This document shows, in pieces, positions 45,282-61,884 of a stretch of 64,000 bases of DNA (the stretch's first letter is position 1; the number at the start of each line of letters is the position of its first letter). The position numbers were made by a program, and so were the translations under genes. Origin of the DNA: Paenibacillus sp. FSL H8-0537 (GTDB lineage: Bacteria; Bacillota; Bacilli; Paenibacillales; Paenibacillaceae); assembly GCF_038051995.1 (NCBI RefSeq), contig NZ_CP150290.1, positions 4,702,001 to 4,766,000 of the forward strand, written 5' to 3'. The notes below the pieces were generated by a model, which saw only the letters and a program-made list of their open reading frames with translations, searched no databases and had not been told where the DNA came from.

Positions 45282-45308
45282 TCTCGGCTTCTCCCTCCAA
45301 GCGAGCTG

Positions 45309-47375
45309 CTAAAACAAGTAATACCGCTGTGCCATCGGCAGCTCGCTTAGCGGCTCACATATCGCCTGCTCGCCATCTACGAGTACCTCATACGTATCTG
45401 GGTTAACGGTAATTTCCGGCGTTAAATCATTCAACAGCATGTCACGCTTGCCGATGTTTCGGCAGCCCGATACCGGCAGTACCTGCTTTGCAAGGCCCAG
45501 CTGCTGCTTAATGCCAGCATCGGCAGCAGCCTTCGATACGAAGGTAATACAGCTGCTGTATTTGGCCTTCCCATGCGCTCCGAACATGAGCCGACCGATT
45601 TTTGGTTCCGGTGTTGGAATCGAAGCATTAGGATCGCCCATGATCGCGAAAGCAGGCATGCCGCCCTTCAGCACCATTTCCGGCTTCGTCCCGAAAAATT
45701 CCGGCTTCCACAAGACGAGATCCGCCCATTTCCCCGCCTCGACCGAGCCTACATATTTCGAAATGCCATGGGCAACGGCAGGATTTATCGTATATTTAGC
45801 TACAAAACGCTTTACCCTGCTGTTGTCGTTAGCACTCACCTCTCCGGCTTTGCCATCCGCAACAGCCTCGACATCCGTGCCAGCCCCGCCATCTCCAGCC
45901 AATGGACCGCGCTGGCGCTTCATTTTATCGGCTGTCTGCCACGTACGGGAAATGACCTCTCCCACTCGGCCCATCGCCTGCGAATCGGAGCTAATAATGC
46001 TAAGCGCTCCTAAATCATGCAAAATATCTTCAGCGGCAATCGTTTCAGGGCGTATGCGAGAGTCAGCAAAAGCGACATCCTCGGGAATGTTGCGATCGAG
46101 GTGATGGCAAACCATCAGCATATCCAAATGCTCTTCTATCGTATTAATCGTAAAAGGCTTTGTAGGGTTCGTCGAAGATGGAATGACGTTCGGATGGCCT
46201 GCGAGCGTAATAATATCCGGCGCATGGCCGCCACCCGCCCCTTCGGTATGGTACGTATGAATCGTCCGTCCGTTAATGGCTTTAATCGTCTCTTCCACAA
46301 AACCCGCTTCATTCAGCGTATCGGTATGAATCGCTACCTGGATGTCCATTTCATCCGCGACTGTGAGTGCCGCGTCGATAACAGCTGGCGTTGAGCCCCA
46401 ATCCTCATGAATTTTAAGACCAATCGCCCCCGCAGCTACTTGCTCGCGCAGCGTATCCAGACCGGATGAGTTGCCTTTGCCGAGAAAACCAATATTCATC
46501 GGGTATTCCTCAGCCGCCTCCAGCATGCGGTGGATATGCCAGCTGCCCGGCGTACAGGTCGTTGCTTTCGTCCCCTCGGCCGGCCCCGTTCCTCCGCCAA
46601 TCATCGTCGTCACGCCTGAAGACAGCGCCGTCTCTATTTGCTGAGGGCAAATAAAATGAATATGCGTATCAATGCCGCCTGCAGTGATGAGCTTCCCTTC
46701 CCCCGCAATAACCTCTGTCGAAGCGCCAACGATGAGTTCAGGATGAACGCCGTCCATCGTGTCCGGATTGCCCGCCTTGCCAATGGCAACGATTTTCCCA
46801 TTTTTGATGCCAATATCACCCTTTACAATCCCGGTGTAATCAATAATAACGGCATTGGTAATGACCGTATCGAGCACATTCTCATCCCGTGTACGAAATG
46901 CGGACTGTCCCATCCCGTCGCGCAGCACCTTGCCTCCGCCGAACTTGCATTCATCGCCATAATGGGCATAATCGCGTTCAATCTCTATAAACAGTTCTGT
47001 ATCTGCAAGCCTAACCCGGTCGCCTATCGTCGGCCCAAACATGCTGACATAGGCTTCTCTAGAGATTGGCAAGCCTACCTGTTTATCCTCTCCTTCCGTG
47101 CTGAGCGGCGCAGCCCCCCCGCCATAAGCTACGAGCTGTATCAGCTTCTCCTCGCCCGGCTCGAAGCGCACAGCCGTGCCTGATGGAATATTGAGGCGAA
47201 AGCCTTCTGCTGCCGCACGGTCAAAATCCAGCTTCGGATTCACCTGTGCAAAAGGAAAATGCGACCCGACCTGAATCGGACGATCCCCGCGGTTCATAAC
47301 TAATATGTCTCTTACGATGCGACCTGTATTTTGCCATACCATATCCTGCTTTGGAACCACCTCACCGGGAATCAT
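45309..47375 (-). CDS. ureC: Urease beta-alpha fusion (UreB-UreC in one reading frame)
   Basis: A 688-residue frame. Residues 1-about 91 are the urease beta subunit ([19 protein letters not shown]..., [13 protein letters not shown]). A linker ([12 protein letters not shown]) follows and from about 104 the catalytic alpha subunit. Active-site residues are intact: HIHF, the carbamylated Lys at 321 (GLKIHED; offset 104 from the usual 217), [18 protein letters not shown], the flap CHHL and SDSQAMGR. Beta and alpha are normally separate genes in bacteria. An AAGGAGAGG at 47087-47095 and a TTG at 47070-47072 before ISREAY leave open internal initiation of a separate alpha chain. It overlaps ureA by 4 nt. 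Confidence 0.9.
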
Positions 47376-47698
47376 GCTTGACTCTCCTTCCTTCGCGGAA
47401 CGATTGGATCATGAATCGTTACCAGCTTCGTTCCATCCGGAAAGGTAGCCTCAACCTGTACCTCATGAATCATCGACGAGATGCCCTCCATGACTTCATC
47501 TTCAGCAAGAATGGTGCGGCCGTAACTCATGAGCTCAGCTACCGTCTTCCCATCCCTTGCGCCTTCCATAATTTCATAAGTAATAATGGCAACGGCTTCG
47601 GGATAATTAAGACGCAGGCCGCGAGCCTGCCTTCTCCGTGCCAAATCAGCCGCCAAAACGATAAACAGCTTTTCCTTCTCTCTCTCCAGCAAATACAT
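47372..47698 (-). CDS. ureA: Urease gamma subunit
   Basis: A 108-residue UreA, slightly longer than the usual 100. Typical segments are [73 protein letters not shown]. The ATG has AGGGAG upstream. It is first in the operon, and its stop overlaps the start of the fused beta-alpha gene (ATGA). A GlnR/TnrA-like box lies about 57-73 nt before its start, so nitrogen limitation probably drives expression. Confidence 0.95.
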
Positions 47699-47754
47699 AG
47701 CTACACTCCCTTTATAGCGTCATCTTCGTCATGTTGTATAAACTACAAGTTACT

Positions 47755-47771
47755 TGTCATATATACTAACA
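47755..47771 (-). promoter_or_regulatory. GlnR/TnrA-like box upstream of ureA
   Basis: TGTCATATATACTAACA agrees with TGTNANAWWWTMTNACA except at one position, and the reverse complement also has only one mismatch. In Bacillus the urease promoter is controlled by TnrA and GlnR. A 13-bp dyad (ACAAGTTACTTGT, 47745-47757) overlaps its edge. Confidence 0.6.
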
Positions 47772-47841
47772 TGAAAATCCTTATTTTTGGATATTTTGAA
47801 TAAAAAAATAAATATTGCGTCCGAACGCCAGCCAGCCTCAT

Positions 47842-47896
47842 AAAAAAAAGCCTCCAGCCCCACGAAATCCGTGGTTCTGAAAGCTGGGCAAAGGCG
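47842..47896 (-). terminator. Terminator after the TetR gene
   Basis: On the minus strand CGCCTTTGCCCAGC folds with GCTGGAGGC, enclosing a CCACGGATTTCGTGG hairpin, followed by TTTTTTT. It separates tetR from the urease operon. Confidence 0.75.
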
Positions 47897-47931
47897 CTTC
47901 TTCCCTATCCTTCTACCTGTTTTCATATCGG

Positions 47932-48516
47932 TTATGAATCTAGCAAACTTAATATCATATTCATGCTATTGTCAACAAAAGAACGATCTGGGCGAGCTTT
48001 CATCAAAACCGTAAGTCCAATTAACGACACGACCAGCGTCTGCGCCAAAACCTTAGCGTTGATATTGCGATTAAGCTCGCCCGTGCTAATGCCGCGTTCA
48101 ATCGTCTCCTCAAAAATAACCGAAAGGTACATCTGATGCTCTCTCGTCAAAATTTCAAATTTCTCATCGTGAGGGGACAGCTCCACCATCGTATTGATGC
48201 AAAAGCACCCCAACTTTAAGCCTTCCCGGTATTCTATATCCAGCTTTTGCTCAAAAAAATCACGAAACGCTGCTTTAACCGAAGTCTTCTTCTGCAGGCT
48301 CGCACGTACTTGAGCAGCATGTTCTCTTGTATATTTTCGCAGCGCAGCTTCAAACAGCGATTTCTTATCCCCAAAGGCCGCATAAATGCTTGGACGCTGA
48401 ACGCCCATCGCCGCGGTCAAGTCACTTAAGGAAGTCGCTTCAAAGCCCTTCTCCCAAAAAATCCGCAGTGCTGCATCCAATGCCTGCTCCTCATTAAATT
48501 CGCGTAAACGAGCCAT
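47932..48516 (-). CDS. TetR/AcrR family transcriptional repressor
   Basis: A 194-residue TetR protein. The HTH is at about residues 6-50 (EQALDAALRIFWEKGFEATSLSDLTAAMGVQRPSIYAAFGDKKSLFEAAL), followed by a helical ligand domain with a DFFEQKLDIEY...CFCINTMVEL stretch resembling the YxaF/TetR_C group. The start is ATG 48516 with GGAGG 5 nt upstream; an upstream TTG overlaps that site. It is divergent from an MFS exporter, and the intergenic palindrome at 48642-48663 is its probable operator. Confidence 0.9.
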   Translation of the reverse strand: MARLREFNEEQALDAALRIFWEKGFEATSLSDLTAAMGVQRPSIYAAFGDKKSLFEAALRKYTREHAAQVRASLQKKTSVKAAFRDFFEQKLDIEYREGLKLGCFCINTMVELSPHDEKFEILTREHQMYLSVIFEETIERGISTGELNRNINAKVLAQTLVVSLIGLTVLMKARPDRSFVDNSMNMILSLLDS

Positions 48517-48599
48517 AGAAACCTCCAATTAAACAACGATCAGTATACTATTATATTAAAATCTAATAGGAGAATTGTCAACGTAAAATCAATTAAACC

Positions 48600-48629
48600 T
48601 TGACAATATTCCACCTTTAATTTTATAGT
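48600..48629 (+). promoter_or_regulatory. Promoter of the MFS exporter gene
   Basis: TTGACA (48600-48605), an 18-bp spacer and TATAGT (48624-48629). The TetR-type palindrome begins 13 bp downstream, over the expected start of transcription. On the other strand TTGACA followed 17 bp later by TAATAT (about 48550-48582) is a likely tetR promoter. Confidence 0.65.
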
Positions 48630-48641
48630 AATCAAGCATAA

Positions 48642-48663
48642 TTATGTACTGTTCAGTACATAA
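48642..48663. promoter_or_regulatory. TetR-type palindromic operator
   Basis: TTATGTACTG (48642-48651) and CAGTACATAA (48654-48663) form a perfect dyad with a 2-bp spacer. It is placed just after the MFS promoter, where a bound repressor would block initiation. Confidence 0.75.
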
Positions 48664-48691
48664 AAACACATTCATAAAGGAGTTATTTTTG

Positions 48692-49936
48692 ATGCTGAAA
48701 AAAGAATCACCATTTGCGGATCACGCCGCCACAACCGTACTAGCTCAAGCAAACGACAACCCTGCCCCGGCTTTATCGCGAAAAACAGCTCTACTATTCG
48801 CTTTCGCCTGCGGACTTGCCGTAGCAAATATTTATTTTGCCCAGCCCTTGCTGGACACTATTTCGGGCGAGTTTGGCATTGCTGCCTCTTCAATAGGTGC
48901 GGTCATTACCGTTACCCAAATTTGCTATGCGCTTGGCTTGCTATTGCTTGTGCCGCTTGGCGATTTCTTGAATCGCCGCACACTTGTTGCCTCGCAAATG
49001 CTATTATCCGTCATCGCCTTACTTGTCGTCGGCTTCTCCACAAACTCAGCTGTTCTGTTTGCAGGCATTGCCGTCGTCGGACTGCTTGCTGTTGTCACCC
49101 AAACCTTGGTCGCTTTCGCAGCCGCGCTAGCTTCACCTTCTGAACGCGGACAAATCGTTGGAGTCGTTACGAGCGGCATCGTGATGGGTATATTGCTGGC
49201 TCGCACCTTTGCTGGAATTTTGACAGACATCGCTGGCTGGCGCTCTGTTTATTTAGCTTCTGCAGCCCTTACTCTCCTGATGGCCGTCACGCTGTACCGC
49301 ATATTGCCACGCGATGACCGGCAGCGTGACAGCCTATCGTACTGGCAGCTGCTGCGCTCTGTACTCACCTTATTTGCCGAAGAACGGGTGCTTCGGGTCC
49401 GTGCTGTGCTCGCGCTGCTCATTTTTGCCGCCTTCAGCATATTGTGGACGTCTTTGGTACTGCCGCTTAGCGCTCAGCCCTTCTCGCTTTCGCACACTGC
49501 TATTGGCGCCTTCGGTCTAGCCGGCGCAGCCGGAGCTTTAGCAGCAGCGAGAGCAGGACGGCTTGCTGACCGCGGCTTTGGCCAACGAACAACAGGCATC
49601 GCGCTTGTCCTGCTGCTTATTTCCTGGTTGGCCATTCGTTATGCCGACCAATCCCTTTTCCCATTAATAATAGGTATTATCTTGCTCGATTTAGCCGTAC
49701 AGGCCGTACATGTCACCAATCAGAGCATGATCCTCAGCGTTCGACCGGAGGCGCGAAGCAGACTAACCGCTGGTTATATGGTGTTTTATTCCATTGGAAG
49801 CGCAGCTGGTTCGATTGCTTCTACCAGCATTTACGCTTATGCAGGCTGGAGCGGCGTATGCTGGCTAGGAGCAGGCGTTAGCGCCATAGCACTTCTATTT
49901 TGGGCGGCAACCCGCTTGCCGAAAGTAGCTTCCTAG
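48692..49936 (+). CDS. MFS efflux transporter
   Basis: A 414-residue protein with 12 hydrophobic segments after a soluble N-terminus of about 35 residues. MFS motifs are seen in the loop 2-3 (PLGDFLNRRTLV) and in the later repeat (AGRLADRGFGQRTTG). The early FACGLAVANIYFAQPLLDTIS segment is typical of the YgaY/drug-efflux-like group. The start is ATG 48692 with AAAGGAG upstream; the frame opens 48 nt earlier, within the operator. It is divergent from and probably repressed by the adjacent TetR protein. The substrate is unknown. Confidence 0.85.
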   Translation: MLKKESPFADHAATTVLAQANDNPAPALSRKTALLFAFACGLAVANIYFAQPLLDTISGEFGIAASSIGAVITVTQICYALGLLLLVPLGDFLNRRTLVASQMLLSVIALLVVGFSTNSAVLFAGIAVVGLLAVVTQTLVAFAAALASPSERGQIVGVVTSGIVMGILLARTFAGILTDIAGWRSVYLASAALTLLMAVTLYRILPRDDRQRDSLSYWQLLRSVLTLFAEERVLRVRAVLALLIFAAFSILWTSLVLPLSAQPFSLSHTAIGAFGLAGAAGALAAARAGRLADRGFGQRTTGIALVLLLISWLAIRYADQSLFPLIIGIILLDLAVQAVHVTNQSMILSVRPEARSRLTAGYMVFYSIGSAAGSIASTSIYAYAGWSGVCWLGAGVSAIALLFWAATRLPKVAS

Positions 49937-50357
49937 CTCTCCATTTTTCCACGGTGCATCCGCCAATTGTATTGGGGTTTCCATTGCTTTAGGCCCTTAT
50001 CCCCTTAGCTCAGAAAAAAATATCGGCTCACCATTTGACACAAAGTTTCTGAGCTAAGGGGATAACTTAGCAAAGCGCAAAAAACAGCATCAGCGTTTTG
50101 CATTAATGAACGATACAATTGCGGCGGAAAGGCGCAAAACAATATGAATTGTCAGCACTAGTCGCGATGAAACCTTTAATGCAAATTCAGTTGTTCCAAA
50201 CCATCTGTTTAAATACATAGGAAAAGCTTATGCGAACAAGCTAGTAATTCCCCAGGAAATAAATGAGCATATAACGGCTACTGTAACAAGCTTGCGAATG
50301 CTTTTAGCTAGCCATTTTTATTTAGCGTTCAATTGGCTATTACTAAATACCGCTCAT
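49937..50357. other. Intergenic region with a 20-bp perfect inverted repeat
   Basis: No gene is convincing. TTATCCCCTTAGCTCAGAAA (49997-50016) pairs exactly with 50046-50065 across a 29-nt spacer. It could be a large-loop terminator between the convergent MFS and leucine dehydrogenase genes, or the ends of a small repeat element. The remainder (50066-50357) shows no pattern I can name. Confidence 0.5.
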
Positions 50358-51401
50358 TTATACCCGATGTTTATTTATCCGCATCTCCGCCAGTCGATCC
50401 GCTGCACGGAAAGAAGGAATTTGCTGCTCTTTCGATAGTTCAAAAATACGCTGGAGCTGGCTGTAAATTCCCTCTACCTTGCTGAGCACTCGCTCCCTGT
50501 TATAGCCATATAATTCGTCAGCGACATTCATTAAGCCGCCGGAGTTGACGACGTAGTCTGGAGCATATAATATGCCTTGAGCCGCGAGCTGATCTCCATG
50601 CTTTTCTTCCTTTAGCTGATTATTGGCAGCACCCGCAACCACTTTCGCCTTAAGCAGCGGAAGGGTATCATCATTAATTATTCCCCCCATCGCGCATGGG
50701 GCAAAAATATCGCATTCGACGCCATAAATATTATCCACGCCGACCGCTTTTGCCCCAAACTCAAGCACTGCACGCTCTGCATTTGCTTGCACGACATCAG
50801 TCACAATCAGCTTAGCACCCGCTTCATGCAAATAGCGGCATAAATGATAGGCAACACTGCCTACACCCTGTACCGCAATCGTTTTCCCCAACAGATCAGT
50901 TGACCCGAAAACCTCAAGGGCAGCGGCTCTGATGCTGTGAAATACACCGAGTGCTGTAAATGGCGAAGGATTGCCCCCACTTCCAAATTCTGGAGATACT
51001 CCTGTAACGAACTTCGTCTTCTGACGAATAAAATCCATATCCGCCACAGTCGTCCCTACATCCTCCGCCGTGATGTATCGGCCGTTCAATGTTCCAATGA
51101 ATCGTCCAAACGCATGAAACAGCTCCTCGCTTTTATCCGTCATGGGGTTGCCGATAATGACCGCCTTGCCCCCACCCAGATTAAGCCCTGCTACGGACGA
51201 TTTATAGGTCATGCCTCGCGCAAGCCGGACGACATCGTGGACGGCGGCCTCCTCCGTTGCATAGGGATACATGCGAGTACCGCCAAGCGCCGGTCCAAGT
51301 GTCGTATCATGAATAGCGATAATTGCCCTTAAGCCCGATTTGTGATCATAACAAAAAACGAGCTGCTCCACATCATATTGCTCCAACCGCTCAAAATACA
51401 A
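50358..51401 (-). CDS. Leucine (branched-chain amino acid) dehydrogenase
   Basis: A 347-residue Glu/Leu/Phe/Val dehydrogenase that reversibly deaminates branched-chain amino acids with NAD. The catalytic region is GPALGGTRM, with K67 (GMTYKSS) and K79 ([10 protein letters not shown]) in the positions known from Bacillus leucine dehydrogenase; the NAD fold follows ([30 protein letters not shown]). The start is placed at TTG 51401, 7 nt after AGGAG, which aligns the N-terminus with the family; upstream GTG codons are alternatives. It stands alone. Products feed branched-chain fatty-acid synthesis. Confidence 0.88.
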
Positions 51402-51801
51402 AACACCCACTCCTATCTCCACGGAAATATGCCGGATTAGACTACATCATCTCTCTCTATTTAATCTATTCTTCAAAGCTATGAAGTGACTCATTCGCTT
51501 GCCTAACCAATCATAATAAGTTTTACTAGAAATGTTGCCTTTAACTTCAACATGTTGCTACGAACATTTATGACTAATAATCGTTACGATGCCGCTATAA
51601 CCTAGCGACAGCATATTCATACGATCACATTAGTTTTCGCAAGATCGTAGAGCTACCCCATCTCAACTTGGGTGATTCCTGGGATTCGATGAAGGTTAAT
51701 TTAGCCGGCCATTTAAGCGAAGCATATTAACAGTAGATACATTTTGTTATAAAATAGGATACAACTGTTCTTTTCACATTTCTCACACAAGGAGTGTACG
51801 T
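51402..51801 (+). promoter_or_regulatory. Intergenic region with the candidate promoter of the MTase-like/ATPase/HNH operon
   Basis: AT-rich divergent spacer. TTAACA (51727-51732), a 17-bp spacer and TAAAAT (51750-51755) make a plausible sigma-A promoter about 45 nt before the ATG at 51802. AAGGAG lies near 51790. No dedicated regulator gene or obvious operator is present. Confidence 0.4.
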
Positions 51802-53811
51802 ATGCTATCGGATGAACTAAAAAAAGAAGCACAGCGCCTTTGCAGACTTTTCACCAAACGCGGTTTCAAGACAGATGCCGCTCTCGATCATATCGCTTTT
51901 TTATTTTTCCTACATAGTCTTGATGTTATGAGTCTTTATGCAGAACTCGAGGATGAAACTTACCCAATTAATTGGCCTAAGAATTCCCCGTTGCGCTGGA
52001 GTTCATTAACACAGTTAGAGGGCAATAGCATCGTTGAGCAAATCAATGATCGGGTTTTACCCTCTCTTAAAAATGTAAGAGCAATAACTAGCAGCGATTC
52101 GTTAACAACAGCAATGGGCACTTTCCGTTATTTTCAGGCACCTCCTTCGCTGGCTAAACTGGCATTTAATCAGATTGAAAAACTTGAGAAGCTTTTGGTA
52201 AGTATGTTCAATGAAAACACGCATTCAAATATATTTGTATCAGCACAGATACCTTCGCATTTATTAAGAGGAGAACTGTTTAATTATATTGTGCAGCAGC
52301 TTGATGATAATAATGAGCAATATACTGCCCTTCCACGCAGCATGACTCTCTCCATTATTGAAATGCTGCAACCGGAGCCTGAAAATCAAATCCTTAACCT
52401 CTGCTGCGGTAACGGTAATTTTCTCGCAGACGCTTACGTCTATATAAATAATCATACCAATAATTATCCTAATTCGGATTCGGATGGAATTGTATTTACA
52501 GGATATGATTTAGATAGCTTACGGGTGAGAATTGCCAATGTACATCTCATGCAATTTGGACTATACGGTGATAGCCTCAGCCTCTTCAATTTATGCCATT
52601 TTGAAATTTTCCAAGATGATATATTGTCCGAGCAATTCAAGGATCGTTTCCCATATAAACAGAAATTCCCAATAATTATAGCCCATTTACCAATTCAGCA
52701 TAAAATTAATACTGCGACTTTATCTAATTCTTTCGAAAACTATAATAACTCTACAGTTATGTTTATAAATCGTGTTATCTCATTGCTCGCCGATAACGGA
52801 CGCGCCGCCGTTATCGTACCTAATTCCTTCCTTTTTTCAAACGATTCTGAATCCGTTGCTTGTCGTAAAGAGCTTATCACCAAACTGATTCTAGAGGCCG
52901 TCGTGTCATTGCCTTCCGAAAATGATATAATGCCGAAATCTTCTCTTCTATTGCTACATAAACCTAGAAAAAACAGCGCTTCGCCACAAATCAATAAAAG
53001 AACCTTATTCTATCAAATTGATCAATACAATAAACATAAAAATCTCGTCATTCAATGGAAAAAAAGAAACCACTTCTGGAAAAGCTGGTCGATGCTTCTG
53101 GACAAAGAACGGCAGATATCTGATGATTACAGCTTACAAATTCCAACAAAGTGGCAACATCGTGCCTTCTGGTTCGCTTCCTATGATCAATTACAAAAAC
53201 AAAACTATTCATTAAGACCAGAAACATATAAACCTTTTTTAAAATCTGGTCCTGATGCTACAGCATCTACACAAATTAAGGAATTGAAACAGGAAATTTT
53301 GCAACAAATAAAAATGAATGGAACGTGGCGAACACAAGATAAGGTTCACACACGACTTCGCTCCATACTGACCCATACAGCTTTAATAGAGCTTTTGTCT
53401 GATGGAACTATCTTTTTATCACTTGAAGGCTTGAATGAATCAGCATATCGTTTGAGTGAAAATACCGAGCCTTATCCACTTGATACTGTGTTGAAGATGA
53501 AAATCAAAAAGGAGCTTTCAGAGGAGCAGTACCAATTGTATAAAAATTATAGAGACAGGGTTCCACCACAAGCTATTCATATCGCCGCTAAGCAGCAAAC
53601 TGAGTCTTTGCTGTCGGATACCACTAATTCAGATAAAAAGATCGATGTACAGTTAGCAAAACAAACCGTGGAGCTTCTGCTGGCATTCGGTCTAATCCAG
53701 CGACTAAATGCATCGACTTCCCATTCCAAGACTGTCTGGTATGACAGCATCGCGACCGACTCCTATTCAATTGAACTTTATCAAATCCCAAGAAGGAGCA
53801 AGCATACATGA
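51802..53811 (+). CDS. HsdM-like N6-adenine methyltransferase homologue, probably catalytically dead
   Basis: A 669-residue protein with the HsdM layout: an N-terminal helical domain (LFTKRGFKTDAALDHIAFLFFLHSLD, about 1-150), a SAM-binding Rossmann core (about 170-390) and a C-terminal region of unknown fold (about 430-669). Motif I survives as NLCCGNGNFLADA (about 199-210) and the next strand as GYDLDSLRVRIANVHLMQFG. At the place of catalytic NPPF the sequence is AHLPI (A294-I298), so the catalytic Asn is gone, while flanking GRAAVIVPNSFLF and LEAVVSLP are kept. It starts a tightly coupled operon with an ATPase and an HNH protein. Likely a structural or sensing subunit rather than a modification enzyme. 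Confidence 0.75.
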   Translation: MLSDELKKEAQRLCRLFTKRGFKTDAALDHIAFLFFLHSLDVMSLYAELEDETYPINWPKNSPLRWSSLTQLEGNSIVEQINDRVLPSLKNVRAITSSDSLTTAMGTFRYFQAPPSLAKLAFNQIEKLEKLLVSMFNENTHSNIFVSAQIPSHLLRGELFNYIVQQLDDNNEQYTALPRSMTLSIIEMLQPEPENQILNLCCGNGNFLADAYVYINNHTNNYPNSDSDGIVFTGYDLDSLRVRIANVHLMQFGLYGDSLSLFNLCHFEIFQDDILSEQFKDRFPYKQKFPIIIAHLPIQHKINTATLSNSFENYNNSTVMFINRVISLLADNGRAAVIVPNSFLFSNDSESVACRKELITKLILEAVVSLPSENDIMPKSSLLLLHKPRKNSASPQINKRTLFYQIDQYNKHKNLVIQWKKRNHFWKSWSMLLDKERQISDDYSLQIPTKWQHRAFWFASYDQLQKQNYSLRPETYKPFLKSGPDATASTQIKELKQEILQQIKMNGTWRTQDKVHTRLRSILTHTALIELLSDGTIFLSLEGLNESAYRLSENTEPYPLDTVLKMKIKKELSEEQYQLYKNYRDRVPPQAIHIAAKQQTESLLSDTTNSDKKIDVQLAKQTVELLLAFGLIQRLNASTSHSKTVWYDSIATDSYSIELYQIPRRSKHT

Positions 53812-55445
53812 GACTCATCTTTTTAAAAATAGCGAGATATAAGCAGCTTCATGATTTTGAAATTCGCTTCTCAAAACAAAGTGAACTTCTGGATGCCCCT
53901 TTCGTTCGATTTTTAATTGGTAAAAATGGTTCGGGGAAGTCAACGGTTCTGGAAGCGCTGGCTCTCATTTTCACTCGGATTATGCATGACGAAACCCCCG
54001 GCTTTGATTTTGAGTTGCAATACGCTGTACAGATTGGTAAAGAAGAACGGGTTATTCGCGTTACGCCAAACGATGCCCCGATCAGAACGTATCGGCTCAG
54101 TGTCCAAATTGCAATTAGCGAGAAACACTTGCTTGATGCTAAAAAAGAAGAGCAGCCATTCAGCAGATTAACGGACTATCATCCCTCAAAAATTATCGCT
54201 AGTTCTTCAGGACCCGCGCAACAAATGGAGGAAGCTTTAATTCATTCCCCTCTGTCCAGCCTGATTAGTGATATTTATGACCTTTCAAGGCGCTCTCCTG
54301 CTACGGCTAATGTAGGAGAGCTTGAGCGGTTGAAGACTAGCATCCGCCAGCATCATCAGGATCCGAAATTTTTATTTATGGGGCCACAGACAGCCCCCTT
54401 TGTCTTGATCGCACTTTGCGCAATGCTTCCGCAGGAACAAAGCGAACAAGGGGCCTACATTAACAAGCGTCATTCTTTGCTTCAAATTGTAAAAGACTTT
54501 CAACCCGTTTGGTTTACATTAACGGTGAATGAAGCTATTTTACAGCAGCTTGAACACGGAGAGTTGAAACCCACGGAAGAAGCTTTGCGAATATTTTGCC
54601 AATTAATAGGCTGCATGACTTCCGAAATGGACGATTCAGTAGGGGATTTGTATGACGCTTGTCAACGAACGGCTGCTTACAAAGAGGAGGAGCTTTTTCC
54701 AGCTATTAACCGAACATTTTATTATTTTTTTGAATCTTCGGACGAAACCCCATGCTGTGCCCCCAAGCTAAAAGATATCTGCTCCCCATTCACCCTGTTT
54801 GCGGCGTTAACGGCTGCTTGGCGTAATGGCTGGTTGAGCTCTGCCCATCTAGGTTTTCATCTGGATGAAGTAGATGGTTTGCTTTATGAAACAGCTTTAA
54901 GTGATGGTGAATTTATGTGGCTTGCCCGAATGGGCCTTTTATTGCTTGCCCGCGACAGCGTGCTACCGAATGTTCTTTTTCTGCTTGATGAACCGGATGT
55001 GCATCTTAATGAAGAATGGATTTCCCATTTTGTCAAATGGATTGATGATTTTACAACTATTGGCGACAATAGAGGAGGATTAGCTTTTGAACCTGTTCCA
55101 AGGTACAGTCATGAAATTGTCGTGTCAACCCATTCGACTTTAATGCTAACTGATGCTCTACCGCATCAGGTGTACCTGATTACTAAAAATGGTGTTCAAA
55201 TTGCTGGCGAGCATTTTATATCAACATTTGCCGCTGACCGCACTGAACTTTATGGAAATTTATATAAATTAAATGTAGAAGAAGAAAAATTTGCCGAATC
55301 TTATGTGAAACAAATGATACAATCAGGAACGCCTCAACAATTGAAAGAATTGCTTAACCAATTGGGCCCAGGATATAATCGCTTTCAGCTTCGTGATAAG
55401 GTCGTTTCTCTGAGACATTCAGAATCGACCAGAAGGGACGAATAA
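53808..55445 (+). CDS. SMC/ABC-like AAA ATPase of putative defence operon
   Basis: A 545-residue ATPase of the overcoming-lysogenization/PtuA-like AAA_15/AAA_21 type. Walker A is GKNGSGKST (38-46), the ABC-type signature LSDGEF lies near 364, Walker B LFLLDEPDVHL near 390-397, and the H-loop VVSTHSTL near 440. The N-terminal IARYKQLHDFEIRFSK is the usual first strand. Between the Walker motifs is an insert of about 300 residues that probably forms coiled or helical arms. No TOPRIM nuclease follows, so cleavage must come from the HNH partner. The ATG overlaps the methyltransferase-like stop (ATGA). Confidence 0.85.
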   Translation: MRLIFLKIARYKQLHDFEIRFSKQSELLDAPFVRFLIGKNGSGKSTVLEALALIFTRIMHDETPGFDFELQYAVQIGKEERVIRVTPNDAPIRTYRLSVQIAISEKHLLDAKKEEQPFSRLTDYHPSKIIASSSGPAQQMEEALIHSPLSSLISDIYDLSRRSPATANVGELERLKTSIRQHHQDPKFLFMGPQTAPFVLIALCAMLPQEQSEQGAYINKRHSLLQIVKDFQPVWFTLTVNEAILQQLEHGELKPTEEALRIFCQLIGCMTSEMDDSVGDLYDACQRTAAYKEEELFPAINRTFYYFFESSDETPCCAPKLKDICSPFTLFAALTAAWRNGWLSSAHLGFHLDEVDGLLYETALSDGEFMWLARMGLLLLARDSVLPNVLFLLDEPDVHLNEEWISHFVKWIDDFTTIGDNRGGLAFEPVPRYSHEIVVSTHSTLMLTDALPHQVYLITKNGVQIAGEHFISTFAADRTELYGNLYKLNVEEEKFAESYVKQMIQSGTPQQLKELLNQLGPGYNRFQLRDKVVSLRHSESTRRDE

Positions 55446-55449
55446 TGTT

Positions 55450-56625
55450 ATGCTATTAAAAGTCAGTCCTCCTAAACAGTTGGGCATCCGCTTGCAATTG
55501 GCTTCTTCCTTTATGATTCGATTGCTATACTACTGCGACGTAAAGGGTATACAACCCAAACAGTTTACCAAAAAGCAATTTCTCATTGATCATCCCGAGC
55601 TGAAAGCTTGCGTTTTTGCCAATAAAACAGCCACTACTTTTAAAAATCGCATTAATGATTTTTGGGATGCATGCAAAGCTAAAAAAGAACGGAAGACGGT
55701 TATCTTGGCCTTATGTGTCGATAATTTTTTTATGATGGGCCCCAAAGGTAAGACTCAGATAGCCAATTTCTCCTTTCAATCTTACCAATTAAATATACCT
55801 CAGTATAGCTTAGACTTATTGAAAACATTATTTACTCGATTTTATAACGATTTCTTTAATTATGAGGAAAATGGTTCTAACCTGCGATGGCACTTTAAAG
55901 AAGAATATAAACTAGAAAACCCTGATAATTTCTATTTATGTCCCGCGTGCCTAGGCGAACTGAACTTAGATAAAGCACAACTTGATCATTATTTTCCTAA
56001 ATCGACGCATCTTGCGCTTGTAATCCATCCAAATAATCTTATTCCATTATGTATTTCCTGCAATTCTACAACAGGCGGCGGCAAAGGAGATAAAATTCCG
56101 ACCAATCCGGCAATTCCTACTCAAGCGAACCGCATCGGGTGTCTGGAGGATGCGTATCTACCCTATGAGTCCTATGGTTTAGGGCGGGTGAAGATGCTAG
56201 TGGGTGGAACTCCAGGCAAACGAATGGCTCAGCTAACAACGATGAAAGCTGCGGATAGAACGCCCCTGCTTAACCACGCAGAAACATATGATTTGAATAG
56301 GGTATGGACAAGCCGCTTACATAATGCCAACACTACCCTTATTCACCGACTGGTAGACGCTTTCCGGCATACCTTCGAAACCGATGGGAAGCTTGATTCT
56401 GCTGCAATTGCTCACTTTCTACAGCACTCCATCATTCAGGGAGCAGAGTATAAGTCTTCAAAAATTGAAAATTATTTTATATTGGCTAATTATACTGTTT
56501 GGATATTGGGAGAACCCAATGCATGGATCACCCTTATTGATGAGTTACAGAAAAGGCTTGAAGAGGAAAAAAAACTAAACTTCAAACAAAAACAGCCTTA
56601 TTTTCTCGGCGATCCAGAACCGTAA
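55450..56625 (+). CDS. HNH endonuclease of putative defence operon
   Basis: A 391-residue protein with a central HNH nuclease: CPAC (C164, C167), LDHYFPKS (H180), HPNNLIPLCISCN (conserved Asn, C201, C204). The two CxxC pairs bind structural zinc and the His-Asn set is catalytic. An N-terminal domain of about 160 residues and a C-terminal domain of about 170 residues are of unknown fold, so it is larger than typical PtuB proteins. It starts 5 nt after the ATPase stop, with AAGGGA upstream. It is presumably the effector that cuts nucleic acid when the ATPase complex is triggered. Confidence 0.85.
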   Translation: MLLKVSPPKQLGIRLQLASSFMIRLLYYCDVKGIQPKQFTKKQFLIDHPELKACVFANKTATTFKNRINDFWDACKAKKERKTVILALCVDNFFMMGPKGKTQIANFSFQSYQLNIPQYSLDLLKTLFTRFYNDFFNYEENGSNLRWHFKEEYKLENPDNFYLCPACLGELNLDKAQLDHYFPKSTHLALVIHPNNLIPLCISCNSTTGGGKGDKIPTNPAIPTQANRIGCLEDAYLPYESYGLGRVKMLVGGTPGKRMAQLTTMKAADRTPLLNHAETYDLNRVWTSRLHNANTTLIHRLVDAFRHTFETDGKLDSAAIAHFLQHSIIQGAEYKSSKIENYFILANYTVWILGEPNAWITLIDELQKRLEEEKKLNFKQKQPYFLGDPEP

Positions 56626-56655
56626 TCGTTCTGGACGCGAGTAAACAAGGCTGTT
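56591..56655. terminator. Stem-loop at the end of the defence-like operon
   Basis: AACAGCCTT (56591-56599) pairs with AAGGCTGTT (56647-56655), enclosing CCAGAAC/GTTCTGG (56614-56620 and 56628-56634). It overlaps the last codons of the HNH gene and faces a convergent gene. Confidence 0.5.
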
Positions 56656-56683
56656 TAGGCAAGCAATTTCATCCTATCCCTCT

Positions 56684-57076
56684 TTATTTTTGAAAAGGAA
56701 TTAGCTTACGAACTTGCTCATTACGCAGCCAAATGCCGCCCCAAGCTAGCACAGCAAGATATACGGGAAATAAGGTGTTGCTGAATAATGGAGCATCCAG
56801 GCGCAGATGGGTTACGATGACCCCGCCGAAATACCCGGTCAGCAGTACAACGCCGAGGAATGACGTACGCGGCAGCGCATACAAAATCGTTGATATTAAC
56901 GCAAGAACACCCATAATAACAATATGATGCTCCTGAAATCCGAGCTGAATGGTCGACTCAACTACAACCGCAGGCTTAAACAGCTTCATTATGCCATCAA
57001 ACAGCATAAACAAAATAACCAATCCACTCATGATCCAAGATGTCCAGAGCCGTCCTTTTGAAATGCGCGTGTTCAT
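56684..57076 (-). CDS. DoxX-like membrane protein
   Basis: A 130-residue protein with four hydrophobic segments. The first carries WIMSGLVILFMLFDGIMKLFKP and the third LPRTSFLGVVLLTGYFGGVIVTHLR, both typical of DoxX-like (PF13564-type) proteins, whose function is not settled. AAGGGG lies upstream of the ATG. It stands alone, 53 nt upstream, in the direction of reading, from no obvious partner; the next gene on the right is an AraC regulator ending at 57130. Confidence 0.8.
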   Translation of the reverse strand: MNTRISKGRLWTSWIMSGLVILFMLFDGIMKLFKPAVVVESTIQLGFQEHHIVIMGVLALISTILYALPRTSFLGVVLLTGYFGGVIVTHLRLDAPLFSNTLFPVYLAVLAWGGIWLRNEQVRKLIPFQK

Positions 57077-57129
57077 CGTTATTTTCCCCTTACGTTTTTT
57101 TGAACATATTGTATCACATTTCTCAGCTG

Positions 57130-58791
57130 CTACGGCAAGCGGAAAATACGTGGCAGCGCGGGCAAAAGCCTGTCCCTTGTAATTGGATCATCGAAATTCC
57201 ATTTGGCCTCCGTTACATAAACCCGGCTGCTGTCAAACGACTTCCAATAAACGCTGTTTATAATTCGCGAAGCCTCGCTTCTGGAACGCTCGCTCTCACC
57301 TACTAATAAGAATAGGCGGTCAGCATAATATTCACTCATTTGCTCCTGATCAATCCCTTGAAATGGTATTCCTGCTTCAATTAATTGCTTCACCTTGACA
57401 GCTGGCTCAAACGCCATCGGATGATAAAGCGTTAAGGCGATGCCCCTCATGCCCATGACATACAAATCACCATCTACTAGAACGAAAATAGCAGCTGTTT
57501 CCCTCTCCATCGTGTGTAAATTCAAATGCCTCCACATTTCTCCGGCTTTGCGCTCATAACGTTCAATCCACCTCGTTGCCTGCTCTTCCTTTCCGAACAG
57601 CTCCGCCACCTGCATGAGCCGGTTATAGGTGGGCTGCAAGCGATCAATGGATACGGTAGGCGCTATTTTCGACAGTTCCTCCATTCGATCCTGGCGGAAG
57701 CTGCTGTAGAGTATCAAATCTGGGTACAGCGCTTTCACCTTGCCGAGCTCCCCCAGCAAGCCAATATCTGAAATATTTTTCAGCTCATTGCGATAAACGA
57801 CCTTTCTGCCGATGACCGTCATGTCCGCTCCTACAGGCCTAATACCCAGAGATAACAATTCGCCAAGCACATAACCCACTACAACGACTCGTGAAAAAGG
57901 GCTCACGTCCTGTTTTATTGTCTGATTGCTGACGCCGCGCGTTTTAGCATATTGCTTCGGAGTCAGCCCCATGGCATGCCGGAACCTGCGGGCAAAATAA
58001 TATTCGTCCTTGAACCCTGTCTGACGGGCAATTTCGCGCAAAGGATCATCTGTTAGCAGCAGCAGTTCCTTCGCGCGATTCAAACGAAGCTCCGTCAAAT
58101 AATCGAGCGGCTTCTTGCCCGTCAAGGTTTGGAACAAAGCGCTATATTGCCAGCGGGCTACACCGGACATTTTCGACAGCTGCTCCACGGTCATTTCCTC
58201 CCGGTAATGCTCTACCATATAAGCGATGCTTTCCTGAACAGCAAGCTTAGCATCCGACAAGGAGTGTGAAGCTGCAACATGCTCCATCAGCAGCACAAGA
58301 AGCTCCTGTAACCGAATCTGCTGCTTGAATTGATCCACTTGCTTGTCGCCTTGATTATTTGCGGAACCCTCAGCAGCCTGCTCCAACAAATCAATGAGCC
58401 GAGACATCGCTGCCACATCAATTCTCGTCTCGTAGGGCAAATTCAACCCGATCTCTAGCGCTGGCTCCCGTTCTCCCATACGATAGGCATCGAAAGCAAT
58501 AACATACACCGCTCCGCGATGCCCCTCCATATCCCTTGCTTCTATTTGTGCTTGTGCACCGGGAGCAAGCAGAAAGCACGCCCCTTTTTCGGCATAAATG
58601 GCGTGGCCCTCCAGATGGAGCTTCCCTCCGCTTTGAGCAAAGGCAACGATGCGATGCCCCTTGCTTTCTAATGAAGGGATGATTCGATCAAACCCACAAT
58701 CTACTATGTTAACCGACGTAAGGATATACAAGTAAGGCAGTGATAGGGAAGCTGTTGGTTCACCCGGTTTTAACAATGGAACGTCATCCAT
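57130..58791 (-). CDS. AraC regulator fused to siderophore-binding (FecB-like) domain
   Basis: A 553-residue chimera of the Bacillus Btr type. A cupin-like N-terminal part (about 1-180) is followed by an AraC HTH (about 190-290; MTVEQLSKMSGVARWQYSALF and DPLREIARQTGFKDEYYFARRFRHAMGLTPKQYAK) and a periplasmic-binding-like domain (about 310-553; VLGELLSLGIRPVGADMTVIG, DLILYSSFRQDRMEELSKIAPTVSI). No signal peptide is present, so it would sense a ferric siderophore in the cytosol, as Btr does for bacillibactin. AAGGGGG precedes the ATG. It is divergent from the Fur-box-controlled lipoprotein operon, its probable target. Confidence 0.88.
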   Translation of the reverse strand: MDDVPLLKPGEPTASLSLPYLYILTSVNIVDCGFDRIIPSLESKGHRIVAFAQSGGKLHLEGHAIYAEKGACFLLAPGAQAQIEARDMEGHRGAVYVIAFDAYRMGEREPALEIGLNLPYETRIDVAAMSRLIDLLEQAAEGSANNQGDKQVDQFKQQIRLQELLVLLMEHVAASHSLSDAKLAVQESIAYMVEHYREEMTVEQLSKMSGVARWQYSALFQTLTGKKPLDYLTELRLNRAKELLLLTDDPLREIARQTGFKDEYYFARRFRHAMGLTPKQYAKTRGVSNQTIKQDVSPFSRVVVVGYVLGELLSLGIRPVGADMTVIGRKVVYRNELKNISDIGLLGELGKVKALYPDLILYSSFRQDRMEELSKIAPTVSIDRLQPTYNRLMQVAELFGKEEQATRWIERYERKAGEMWRHLNLHTMERETAAIFVLVDGDLYVMGMRGIALTLYHPMAFEPAVKVKQLIEAGIPFQGIDQEQMSEYYADRLFLLVGESERSRSEASRIINSVYWKSFDSSRVYVTEAKWNFDDPITRDRLLPALPRIFRLP

Positions 58792-58906
58792 TGGCGAGCC
58801 CCCTTCTCTTCATAATTGTACTAGTATATCGGAATATAAAAGGGCTATCAACAAACATTCGAGCCCGCTCTTCATTTTGTCCAATAAAAAATCAGACATT
58901 TCTCTA

Positions 58907-58935
58907 TTGTTAGCTGCGATAATAATCCTTAGTAT
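58907..58935 (+). promoter_or_regulatory. Promoter of the NikA-like/MFS operon
   Basis: TTGTTA (58907-58912), a 17-bp spacer and TAGTAT (58930-58935). The Fur box begins 10 bp further on. Confidence 0.5.
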
Positions 58936-58944
58936 TATTGAACG

Positions 58945-58959
58945 TAATAATCATTCTCA
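58945..58959 (+). promoter_or_regulatory. Fur box
   Basis: TAATAATCATTCTCA matches the 7-1-7 Fur consensus TGATAATNATTATCA at 12 of 14 defined positions. It overlaps the expected transcription start, so iron-replete Fur should repress the lipoprotein-MFS operon. Confidence 0.75.
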
Positions 58960-58985
58960 ATTGATGAAAAGGGGTACCTGCTCAG

Positions 58986-60623
58986 ATGTCCAGAATAAAA
59001 GGAATTACCACCCTGCAGATGATTTTAGCTTTATTAGTATTAGTCATCCTCGCAATGGGATGCTCGCAGCAAGAGGCGTCATCTACGGGCAACAAGGCGG
59101 GAACGAATACAGCCGCCCCGCAGGAAAAAGCGATTACCGTGGCTTGGCTAAGAGATATAGGCCCGCTTAATCCTCATGTCTACTATCCATCGCAATTATT
59201 TGCACAGTCCATGCTCTATGAGCCATTGGTCAGCTACAATGAGGGCGGAGAGCTTAAACCGCAGCTCGCTGAGTCATGGGTCATTTCAGCCGATGGCAAG
59301 GAATATACGTTCAAGCTCCGCCAAAATGTCAAATTCGCGGATGGAACGCCTTTTAATGCAGCTATTGTCCAGAAAAACTTTGACGCTATTATGCTCAACA
59401 AAAGCGTCCACAGCTGGATTGGACTCGTCAAAGTGCTTGAAAAAACGGAAGCTGTCGACGAATATACGTTTAAAATAACGTTGTCCGCACCATACTATCC
59501 AACCTTGCAGGATTTGGCGATTGTGCGGCCTTTCCGTTTTCTTGCTGAAGCCGGATTCCCGGATGACGGAGATACGACGAAAGACATCAAGCAGCCGATT
59601 GGCACCGGGCCTTGGCAGCTCGCTGATTACAAGAAGGATGAATATGCGGTTTTCACCAGAAATCCAAATTACTGGGGAGAAATGCCCAAGCTAGACAAAA
59701 TTACGGTCAAAATCATACCGGATGGCGAAACACGAGTTCTCGCTTTTGAGAAAGGCGAGCTGGATCTGATTTTTGGAGAGGGCGCGATCAGTATGGATGC
59801 TTTTCAACAATTAAAGGATTCAGGCAAATATGAGACCGGGCTGTCCGAGCCTGTTGGCACAAGAAGCCTGCTGCTTAATACGCTAAACGACAAGCTGGCT
59901 GATCACCGGGTGCGGCTTGCGCTTCAGCAAGGCTTTGACAAAGCAACCATGGTAGATGGCGTAACGGGTGGCGTAGAGGAAGCTGCAAACAACATTTTAT
60001 CCAAAAACTATCCTTATTCCAATATCGACTTTGCGCCTATCGGTTACGATGCTGCCAAAGCAAATGACTATTTGGAGGAAGCCGGATGGAAGCTCGAAGC
60101 TGGTAAAACGGTACGGGAAAAAGACGGCCAGCCGCTCGAGCTTGAGTTAATGTACGATAAAGGCGATCTTATTCAGAAAGCGATGGCCGAAACGATTCAA
60201 TCCCAGTGGGCAGAAATCGGAGTCAAGCTGAACCTCAATGCCGTCGAGCTTGCCATGATTCCTCAGCGCTTGAGGGAAGGTACGTTCGACATCCACTTCT
60301 GGTTCAATTACGGCGTGCCTTATGATCCGCATACGCTTATTAATTCGGTCAGGGAACCTGGCTTCGGTATATCGGAAGCACATAGCAGCCTCCCAATGAA
60401 GGCGGAACTGGATCAGCAAATTGTCACAGCACTCGCTTCCACGGACGAAGTCGAACGCCAGCAGCTGTATACGACCATTTTGAAAACATTGAATGAACAG
60501 TCGGTTATTTTGCCAATCTCTTATATTAAACAAACCGTCGTTTACCAGAAAAGCTTGAAAAACTTCAAATTTCCAGCCAGCCGTTGGGATCATCCTTTTG
60601 AAGGGCTCGAACTAAATTCGTAA
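58986..60623 (+). CDS. NikA/OppA-like (SBP_bac_5) solute-binding lipoprotein
   Basis: A 545-residue lipoprotein. The signal ends in a lipobox (LAMGC), followed by a Ser/Thr/Ala-rich linker. The SBP_bac_5 fold is clear: LNPHVYYPSQLFAQSMLYEPLVSYN, LAESWVISADGKEYTFKLRQNVKFADGTPFNAAIVQKNF, GTGPWQLADYKKDEYAVFTRNPNYWG. These proteins bind oligopeptides, nickel or metallophore-nickel complexes (CntA, NikA). A Fur box and the neighbouring siderophore regulators suggest a metal-chelate ligand. No permease or ATPase is adjacent. AAGGGG lies upstream of the ATG. The downstream MFS gene begins 1 nt after its stop. Confidence 0.88.
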   Translation: MSRIKGITTLQMILALLVLVILAMGCSQQEASSTGNKAGTNTAAPQEKAITVAWLRDIGPLNPHVYYPSQLFAQSMLYEPLVSYNEGGELKPQLAESWVISADGKEYTFKLRQNVKFADGTPFNAAIVQKNFDAIMLNKSVHSWIGLVKVLEKTEAVDEYTFKITLSAPYYPTLQDLAIVRPFRFLAEAGFPDDGDTTKDIKQPIGTGPWQLADYKKDEYAVFTRNPNYWGEMPKLDKITVKIIPDGETRVLAFEKGELDLIFGEGAISMDAFQQLKDSGKYETGLSEPVGTRSLLLNTLNDKLADHRVRLALQQGFDKATMVDGVTGGVEEAANNILSKNYPYSNIDFAPIGYDAAKANDYLEEAGWKLEAGKTVREKDGQPLELELMYDKGDLIQKAMAETIQSQWAEIGVKLNLNAVELAMIPQRLREGTFDIHFWFNYGVPYDPHTLINSVREPGFGISEAHSSLPMKAELDQQIVTALASTDEVERQQLYTTILKTLNEQSVILPISYIKQTVVYQKSLKNFKFPASRWDHPFEGLELNS

Positions 60624-60624
60624 A

Positions 60625-61821
60625 ATGGGCAAAAGCATAGCTGTCTCCGTATCCCCGCCTTTTATAAGGCTTTATATTGTAACCTTTTTATTTTTCAGCG
60701 CAAATCCGATTATTAATATCGTTGTTCCGCTGCGCGGTGAAGCCGAAGGAGCAAGCAATGCCGAAATTGGCATAATGATGGGCGCTTATATGCTTACCAG
60801 CATGCTGCTTCGGCCCTGGGCGGGCAATGTGGTCGCCCGTTTGGGCCCACCGTTTGTACTGCGTTTGTTATTGCTCGCGAACGTTATCATTTTGGCGTTA
60901 TATGCGTTTCTCGGGCTGGAATGGTATTTTCTGCTGCGTGCGCTGCAGGGCGTGACGACCGCCTTTTTTTCCTTGGCACTGCAGATCGGCATTGTTGATG
61001 CACTGCCTGAAAAGGAGCGTTCGCAAGGACTTTCGCTATATTTGTTAGCTGGCATGCTCCCAACCGTTATCCTGCCAATGGCTGCACTTTACTTGTGGAA
61101 TTGGGGCGAAATGCATACATTCGCAGCCGCCATGCTTATTATCGGCGTTGCAGCAGGCTTCGTGGGGTATAGTTCCCTCCTTCCTTCCCGCTTGGCCAGT
61201 TCTAGCACTGGCGGGCAAACAAGCTCTACACTGGCACAGCTTAACCAGTTATGGAGCAATCGGGCTTTTCTCGTGTGCAGCATGGCCATGCTCATTGCTT
61301 CTATCGGCTTTGGTGCTGTCGTCACCTTTATTGCCCTGTATACGAAGCAAAGCGGGGTCGGCAATGCCGGTATTTATCTCATGATCCAGGCTGGCATCAT
61401 CGTAATCTCCCGCTTTGCGCTGCGGACAAAGCTGCCCTCCGATGGCAAGTGGCCTGCTGGCTTAACGATCAGCTTGCTGCTGTGTATGACGATAGGTACA
61501 GCGCTGCTAGCGATGTCGATTTATTGGGGTGCCGCCTATATGTATGTGGCAGCCGGATTTATAGGGCTTGGCATGGCCCTGCTTTATCCAACCTTAATGA
61601 GCTATTTGACCTTTGTGCTGCCAGCCGCCTCCCGAAATACGCTCATTGGCTTGTTTATTGCCATGTCCGACCTTGGCGTTGTGCTTGGCAACATGGCGAT
61701 GGGACCAATCGCCGATCATTTATCCTACTCCTTTATGTACAGCGTTTGCGCCTTATTATTACTTGCCGCTGCTGCCGTTGTGCATATTAGCGGCCGTCGC
61801 TTGGCATCGGAATCTCACTAA
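60625..61821 (+). CDS. MFS transporter, possible metallophore exporter
   Basis: A 398-residue protein with 12 hydrophobic segments. The MFS loop 2-3 region is MLLRPWAGNVVARLGPPFVL, the central loop between segments 6 and 7 is short and polar, and the second half mirrors the first. Coupling to a Fur-controlled NikA-like binding protein resembles the pairing of CntA with the CntE exporter for staphylopine-type metallophores; no nicotianamine-like synthase is in the window, so this is inference. It starts 1 nt after the lipoprotein stop and ends before a bidirectional terminator. Confidence 0.82.
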   Translation: MGKSIAVSVSPPFIRLYIVTFLFFSANPIINIVVPLRGEAEGASNAEIGIMMGAYMLTSMLLRPWAGNVVARLGPPFVLRLLLLANVIILALYAFLGLEWYFLLRALQGVTTAFFSLALQIGIVDALPEKERSQGLSLYLLAGMLPTVILPMAALYLWNWGEMHTFAAAMLIIGVAAGFVGYSSLLPSRLASSSTGGQTSSTLAQLNQLWSNRAFLVCSMAMLIASIGFGAVVTFIALYTKQSGVGNAGIYLMIQAGIIVISRFALRTKLPSDGKWPAGLTISLLLCMTIGTALLAMSIYWGAAYMYVAAGFIGLGMALLYPTLMSYLTFVLPAASRNTLIGLFIAMSDLGVVLGNMAMGPIADHLSYSFMYSVCALLLLAAAAVVHISGRRLASESH

Positions 61822-61834
61822 TACCTGTACGAAA

Positions 61835-61884
61835 AAAAACGCTCATTGATCGGCTATTTTGCCAGCAAATCAATGAGCGTTTTT
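61835..61884. terminator. Bidirectional terminator
   Basis: AAAAACGCTCATTGAT (61835-61850) pairs exactly with 61869-61884 across an 18-nt loop, with A and T runs on either side. It overlaps the last codons of the convergent AraC gene. Confidence 0.85.

Follow-up and report, generated by a model that had tools for sequence, protein, structure and literature searches.

What role can a type I methyltransferase (HsdM) without its catalytic motif play at the head of an operon that goes on to encode an ATPase and a nuclease? The question is raised by a locus of Paenibacillus sp. FSL H8-0537, within positions 4,702,001 to 4,766,000 of contig NZ_CP150290.1 (forward strand). We refer to this whole 64,000-nt stretch as the window, and feature coordinates are those of the window. 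Three genes make up the operon:

51802..53811, plus strand: gene A, HsdM-like protein of 669 amino acids (aa), from the open reading frame call and a Pfam match
53808..55445, plus strand: gene B, PtuA-like ABC ATPase of 545 aa, with intact nucleotide-binding motifs
55450..56625, plus strand: gene C, HNH nuclease-like protein of 391 aa, from the open reading frame call and profiles

The single strand and the 4-nt overlap of A and B (ATGA) stand as given in a preliminary description of this DNA; the gap between B and C is 4 nt and not 5 nt. As judged from sequence, this is a real, inserted, recurrent, restriction-derived operon combining a Septu-like effector with a methyltransferase that lacks its catalytic motif. 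Gene order, descent, insertion, the loss of motif IV and HsdS, and the intact ATPase and HNH residues are well supported. We propose, with a probability of roughly 45%, that the operon serves in defence and that its PtuAB-like effector is held back or set off by the non-catalytic HsdM.

Protein A is an HsdM without motif IV

Protein A matches N6_Mtase (PF02384; E = 5.4e-23) and retains the HsdM fold. Motif I is kept in good part (NLCCGNGNFL), and the motif after it still has its acidic residue (GYDLD). Motif IV reads HLPI in place of NPPF/Y, in agreement with the earlier proposal of an HsdM-like protein apparently unable to methylate; A would be a former HsdM, now non-catalytic. It is the only PF02384 match in the genome, which is a single contig estimated to be 99.99% complete. 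The HsdS domain (PF01420) has no match in this genome at E 0.01, where a divergent HsdS could be missed; the HsdS of one related locus, L036, scored 18.3 bits with PF01420, below the cut-off of 22. On this result, HsdS supplied in trans in this genome was rejected. Among the open reading frames of the window, to which the search for HsdR was confined, neither the HsdS nor the HsdR profile gave a hit. Lacking both motif IV and HsdS, A cannot give guidance by sequence in the manner of a type I enzyme, and a role as brake, sensor or bait is favoured. The lack of an HsdS domain match also weakens the suggestion, made in the preliminary description, that invader DNA or its modification state is what A recognises.

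Proteins B and C resemble a Septu pair

A Pfam scan of B returned ATPase-type families only (AAA_21 and AAA_15). Its match to the PADLOC PtuA1 profile (2.4e-42) and its best PDB fold matches, which are retron and Septu PtuA chains, bear out the Septu-like ATPase–HNH pair proposed before. For C, the Pfam HNH score of 19.9 bits lies just under the cut-off of 21.4, with the HNH residues kept; PtuB models give a weak, local match only (2.2e-5), and the best profile hit, PDC-M01B (1.7e-12), covers the HNH core alone (residues 159-208). Elsewhere in this genome another ATPase gene (499 aa) precedes one of 436 aa that has zinc-finger and EH residues; the two may form a Septu-like pair (G000:C1:6235412-6238202; L030:7413-10203, minus strand).

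The operon is inserted and patchily distributed

Comparison with a close relative, G013 (7.2 Mb, one contig), in which the flanks are contiguous and the operon is absent, delimits the following segment:

51542..56582, no strand: inserted segment, comprising the operon and its upstream region, from flank alignments with G013

Window positions 45000-51429 and 56583-63335 align to G013 at 88–95% in four long blocks, with one further block of 99 nt at 82%, and the AraC-type flanking protein is 88% identical. In a close-up alignment the left homology extends to 51541; the 5041 nt of the segment stand against about 25 nt in G013. Gene C ends in DNA that G013 also has: its final ~13 codons fall in the left part of a hairpin described below.

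At 1e-40, and with the own genome counted, relatives of B were found in 4/394 genomes of the family and 8/392 of the order; the phylum gave 2/299 at the same threshold, the class 1/398 at 1e-30, and a set of relatives' genomes 2/60 at 1e-20. These frequencies are lower bounds, as in most genomes only 3–24 candidates were scored. Relatives of C at 1e-10 occur in one of 51 genomes of the genus, namely its own, and P0168 is its sole relative besides itself among the proteins searched. A tblastn search with B against plasmids and phages gave no match at 1e-10. The scarcity of B relatives in the family supports the patchy distribution expected of defence genes. It also bears on whether the operon belongs to defence at all, since B additionally matches Rad50-type ATPases and could be a DNA-repair or housekeeping SMC-like ATPase accompanied by a nuclease. 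We regard that as very improbable: besides the patchiness, the insertion at an empty site, the restriction-linked kin described next and the PtuA identity of the best fold matches all speak against it.

The ATPase lineage is linked to type I genes

Loci were fetched by their likeness to B, so that the survey shows that B relatives adjoin hsd genes, and not that hsd loci usually carry B. It comprises 27 loci: a set of 22, four more (L096-L099) and the window. The 22 are every distinct locus with an ATPase at or below 1e-20, together with three of the four plasmid hits; loci on contigs already included, nine in all (L045, L047-L053, L055), were dropped, and L039 and L040, two records with matching layouts, were both counted. 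Seven HNH hits and several Hsd hits also served as profile seeds, and their labels hold by construction.

HsdM is encoded in all 27 loci (partial in L002) and HsdS in 24. HsdR was found in 10 of the 22 within the DNA examined (L024 has a 291-aa piece only; at least nine have a long HsdR) and in none of L096-L099. An HNH gene follows the ATPase by profile in 17/27: 12 of the 22 (split in L002), all of L096-L099, and the window. In eight more (L023, L039-L044, L046) the next gene has an HNH-type DH or EH motif by eye only, and L054 ends at a contig edge. Those eight are on contigs classed as viral, and represent ATPase-linked type I loci in which the downstream HNH-like gene is more divergent. 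The ATPase lineage is thus, from its gene neighbourhoods, restriction-linked: its genes adjoin those of type I methyltransferases, and in most loci an HNH gene comes next.

The HsdM link is the rule for this lineage and not peculiar to the window operon, which corrects the preliminary description; rare co-occurrence of the three genes, which would have counted against the preliminary description, was not observed. Contiguous methyltransferase, ATPase and HNH genes occur in the same sequence in seven further genomes of the same taxonomic order (L036-L038, L096-L099); the arrangement is thus more than chance, and the notion that it had been seen once was rejected. Five of these genomes (L036, L096, L097, L099, L098) carry an HsdR-less module in the order hsdS, hsdM with the C-terminal domain discussed below, ATPase, HNH; in L098 a further, canonical hsdM precedes hsdS. 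We found no name for this module in the open-licence PubMed Central (PMC) literature.

Weaker ATPases (E above 1e-20) were excluded (L011, L016, L026, L030, L056-L064, L066-L072, L074, L075; L003, L006, L007, L010, L013). No Hsd gene was found among these loci, and six (L057, L063, L068, L070, L072, L075) have an ATPase and an HNH gene. Two surveyed loci, L029 and L024, pass the cut-off of TIGR04435 (411 and 395 bits against 300). Plasmids of Priestia, Hymenobacter, Sphingobium and Kovacikia encode a methylase, a "restriction system-associated AAA family ATPase" and a hypothetical protein, in that order, and an S subunit is annotated in every one of these records except that of Kovacikia. The Kovacikia locus (L108), the fourth plasmid hit and outside the counts, has R, M, S in two open reading frames, ATPase and HNH.

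In the S-bearing kin (L036, L096-L099) the ATPase–HNH pair occupies the place of HsdR. This, and the retained HsdM fold, would suit an A that recognises DNA without methylating it, binding phage DNA or ends and recruiting B and C to cut DNA in place of HsdR. We consider this role rather unlikely, given the genome's lack of an HsdS match and the loci that carry a long HsdR as well, which show that the pair is not simply a substitute.

Absence of HsdS coincides with loss of motif IV

Asn-Pro-Pro of motif IV is retained in 24/24 HsdS-bearing loci, and its Asn is lost in 3/3 HsdS-less loci. The S-bearing loci read NPP[FY] in 22 cases, NPPV in L001 and NPPI in L096; the S-less ones read HLPI in the window and LPPR in L037 and L038. 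The HsdM proteins of L037 and L038 are 95.4% identical, and the coincidence of HsdS absence with Asn loss therefore amounts to at most two independent observations. Going by the motifs, what is special to the window operon is the absence of HsdS together with the loss of the catalytic motif. In L001:5500-6888 (NPPV) and L096:6386-8128 (NPPI) motif IV lacks its aromatic residue although HsdS is present, and activity is doubtful.

In a larger tree the window falls within a 27-row group and, inside it, a six-row subgroup with P0047, P0048, P0105, L037 and L038. P0047 is labelled Peribacillus sp. TH27 at its source. The rows of known context outside this subgroup (L001, L002, L022, L028, L036) are S-bearing, so the S-less state is most simply derived. 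Grouping of the window, L037 and L038 with P0047, P0048 and P0105 has support of 80/45, 92/92 (unrooted split) and 79.9, in midpoint-rooted trees with long branches (1.1 and 1.55 for the one that ends in the window). An exclusive clade of the window, L037 and L038 was rejected by the approximately unbiased test (p-AU 9.9e-5 and 3.7e-4 in two analyses). The claim that independent HsdS losses are shown was likewise rejected: one or two losses are both compatible with the trees, the known contexts in the subgroup being those of the window, L037 and L038.

In a sister pair the inactive HsdM is maintained by selection

L037 and L038 belong to genomes G922 and G902, whose inactive HsdM pair gives nonsynonymous and synonymous distances (dN, dS) of 0.020 and 0.114 and a ratio of 0.175 (bootstrap 0.10–0.29). 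The methyltransferase core gives 0.17, and an active HsdM pair (L036/L099) 0.21. The inactive HsdM of these genomes is under purifying selection and hence not decaying. In the same loci (L037:9033-11846, L038:8535-11348) dS is 0.012 for the ATPase and 0.048 for the HNH gene, against 0.18–0.28 in the flanks; this greater likeness at silent sites points to a recent exchange of the ATPase–HNH part.

The selection result bears on a plain Septu-like reading, in which B and C act alone and A is a roleless relic of the ancestral methyltransferase locus. According to a passage in PMC13096335, Septu acts with PtuA and PtuB only; the loss of motif IV and HsdS, and the Hsd-free ATPase–HNH pairs among the distant ATPases, agree with such a relic. 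We nevertheless judge it unlikely, as the inactive HsdM of G922 and G902 is under constraint, A is of full length and stands first in the operon, overlapping B by 4 nt, and an HsdM gene is present throughout the closer lineage.

A candidate docking domain

53302..53808, plus strand: C-terminal domain of A, residues 501-669, common to the HsdM or HsdS tails of related loci

The last ~170 residues of A resemble the HsdM tails in L036-L038 and L096-L099 and the HsdS tails in L001 and L002. Searched against eight sequences, a profile built from the HsdM tails recovers the HsdS tails of L001 and L002 at 2.6e-8 and 3.2e-8. The reverse profile, from HsdS tails, finds A at only 0.0019, so that A is linked to the HsdS tails through intermediates; among the tails of the remaining HsdS proteins nothing came below 0.05 (L028 at 9.5). 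Whether hsdS or hsdM, the gene that ends in this domain is always the one directly before the ATPase gene. We infer that the domain contacts the ATPase and treat it as a candidate docking domain. Much of 519-669 is poorly modelled (predicted local distance difference test score, pLDDT, below 50).

Proposed mechanism

Our proposal is that the operon is a compact anti-phage module whose ancestors were ATPase–HNH systems linked to type I methyltransferases. B and C would form an effector like the PtuAB of Septu and retrons, in which an ABC-type ATPase gates an HNH nuclease. A, with no HsdS to give sequence specificity, would have been kept as a structural sensor or brake, holding B and C inactive, probably via its C-terminal domain. 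Perturbation of A by a phage event would then let the HNH protein cut nucleic acid (tRNA or DNA) and stop the infected cell.

Several points weigh against this proposal. We found no experiment showing defence for this ATPase lineage, and the two-protein action of Septu means that A might be dispensable. The PDB matches of B have template modelling (TM) scores of only ~0.4. L001 has HsdM, HsdS and the ATPase and no HNH gene downstream. Purifying selection was measured in G922 and G902 and not in the window's own gene, and these two genomes have HsdS genes elsewhere, ~46 and ~38 kb from the operons, so that HsdS may be supplied in trans there. In the C-terminal third of the inactive HsdM, which includes the proposed docking part, dN/dS is 0.66 on a dS of 0.015; with too few changes to judge, this lends no support to constraint on docking. 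Finally, A keeps part of its cofactor motifs.

A further possible role for A is that of an integrated decoy, a type I methyltransferase that no longer recognises or methylates DNA and persists as bait. Phage anti-restriction proteins that attack HsdM-type proteins, whether DNA mimics (Ocr or ArdA, for instance) or enzymes that destroy S-adenosylmethionine (SAM), would bind or starve A and release the PtuAB-like killer, and phages would be punished for carrying anti-restriction. We give this low odds, because L037 has lost the cofactor motifs that A partly retains and the docking part has no measurable constraint. In a narrower form, A would be a guarded component on which phage proteins directed against HsdM-type enzymes, or a loss of SAM, would act and so free B and C. 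This is more doubtful still: no trigger is known, the absence of HsdS leaves the DNA-mimic groove incomplete, and the state of L037 means that SAM sensing cannot be general.

Composition and boundaries of the operon

51727..51755, plus strand: promoter-like site TTAACA-17-TAAAAT, weak evidence, from a motif scan
56590..56656, no strand: hairpin in the flanking DNA that overlaps gene C at its 3′ end, from fold energy and the G013 alignment

The operon was described as AT-richer than its surroundings and bounded by a promoter-like element and a hairpin. Its GC content is 0.402 against 0.485–0.499 in the flanking genes, a difference that holds yet is modest: 15 of 119 equal-length stretches of the window have a GC content as low or lower. 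The promoter-like site matches at 10/12 positions; 13 such sites were found against a mean of 14.0 in shuffles, and the site is not evidence by itself; the promoter and terminator scans were set aside, their results being at shuffle level. The hairpin is strong (-34.9 kcal/mol, z -6.7); it overlaps gene C and belongs to the flanking DNA, as its left part is present in the relative without the operon. No T-run follows it on the plus strand, and it probably serves the convergent neighbour. No Rfam match reached the gathering score within 51000-57200. P0001, a protein encoded on a 2.5-kb contig, is identical to A until an A-rich run (window 53040-53080) and continues in another frame, by sequencing error or strain variation.

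Comparison with known systems

We found no named defence system that the whole operon matches over its full length, as the preliminary description had held. In the open-licence PMC literature, a scope too narrow to show that the system is unpublished, we found no paper on the TIGR04435 ATPase, on an anti-phage combination of HNH, HsdM and ATPase with type I restriction and Septu, or on a catalytically inactive methyltransferase in anti-phage defence, and PtuA, PtuB and HsdM came together in the retron-Eco7 paper only. The methylation-associated defence system (MADS) does not fit: the match to its methyltransferase MAD2 is 44.1 bits against a cut-off of 720. From type I restriction-modification the operon differs by HLPI in place of the NPP[F/Y/W] of motif IV and by the lack of an HsdS match. 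Loci of TIGR04435 ("restriction system-associated AAA family ATPase", NCBI name) have a homologous ATPase with hsd genes and then an HNH gene; B scores 106.3 bits, below the 300-bit cut-off, and the window has neither hsdR nor hsdS and an HsdM without motif IV. The HsdR-less module comes closer, sharing gene order, the HsdM C-terminal domain and the ATPase lineage; it differs in having HsdS and in keeping Asn-Pro-Pro (NPPF in four, NPPI in L096).

The PADLOC candidates PDC-M01 and PDC-M62 enter through the HNH core of C. Part of a Bacillus cereus survey (PMC11811056) reports that PDC-M62 and PDC-M01 calls coincide with Septu calls.

PrrC, one polypeptide with its own ATPase part, is a nuclease effector in a type I locus, EcoprrI, and serves as a working analogy only. 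A portion of PMC12707154 presents it as a tRNA-Lys anticodon nuclease activated when T4 Stp inhibits the restriction enzyme; in the window, ATPase and HNH protein are separate and the methyltransferase lacks its catalytic motif.

Septu (PtuA–PtuB) and the PtuAB of retron I-A are ABC ATPase and HNH pairs like B and C, whereas the window's first gene is HsdM-derived and the match of C to PtuB is weak and local; nor does the two-gene, stand-alone layout of Septu occur in any of the 27 loci. Excerpts of two reports describe how such pairs act: in Septu Ec-B88 the Walker and HNH residues are required and tRNA-Tyr is cleaved (PMC13096335), and in retron-Eco7 the PtuAB toxin is held by the other retron parts (PMC11555353). 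By analogy, an HsdM-derived A may hold or trigger B and C. Septu-like effectors are known on their own and together with retrons; in this lineage they are joined to parts of type I methyltransferases. Its graded series, from R-M-S-ATPase-HNH through S-M-ATPase-HNH to inactive M-ATPase-HNH, allows one to ask whether the methyltransferase is guide, brake or bait, and in the last form these roles come apart, as it has already lost methylation and site recognition of the type I kind. The operon suggests an old restriction enzyme part turned sensor or brake for a killer module.

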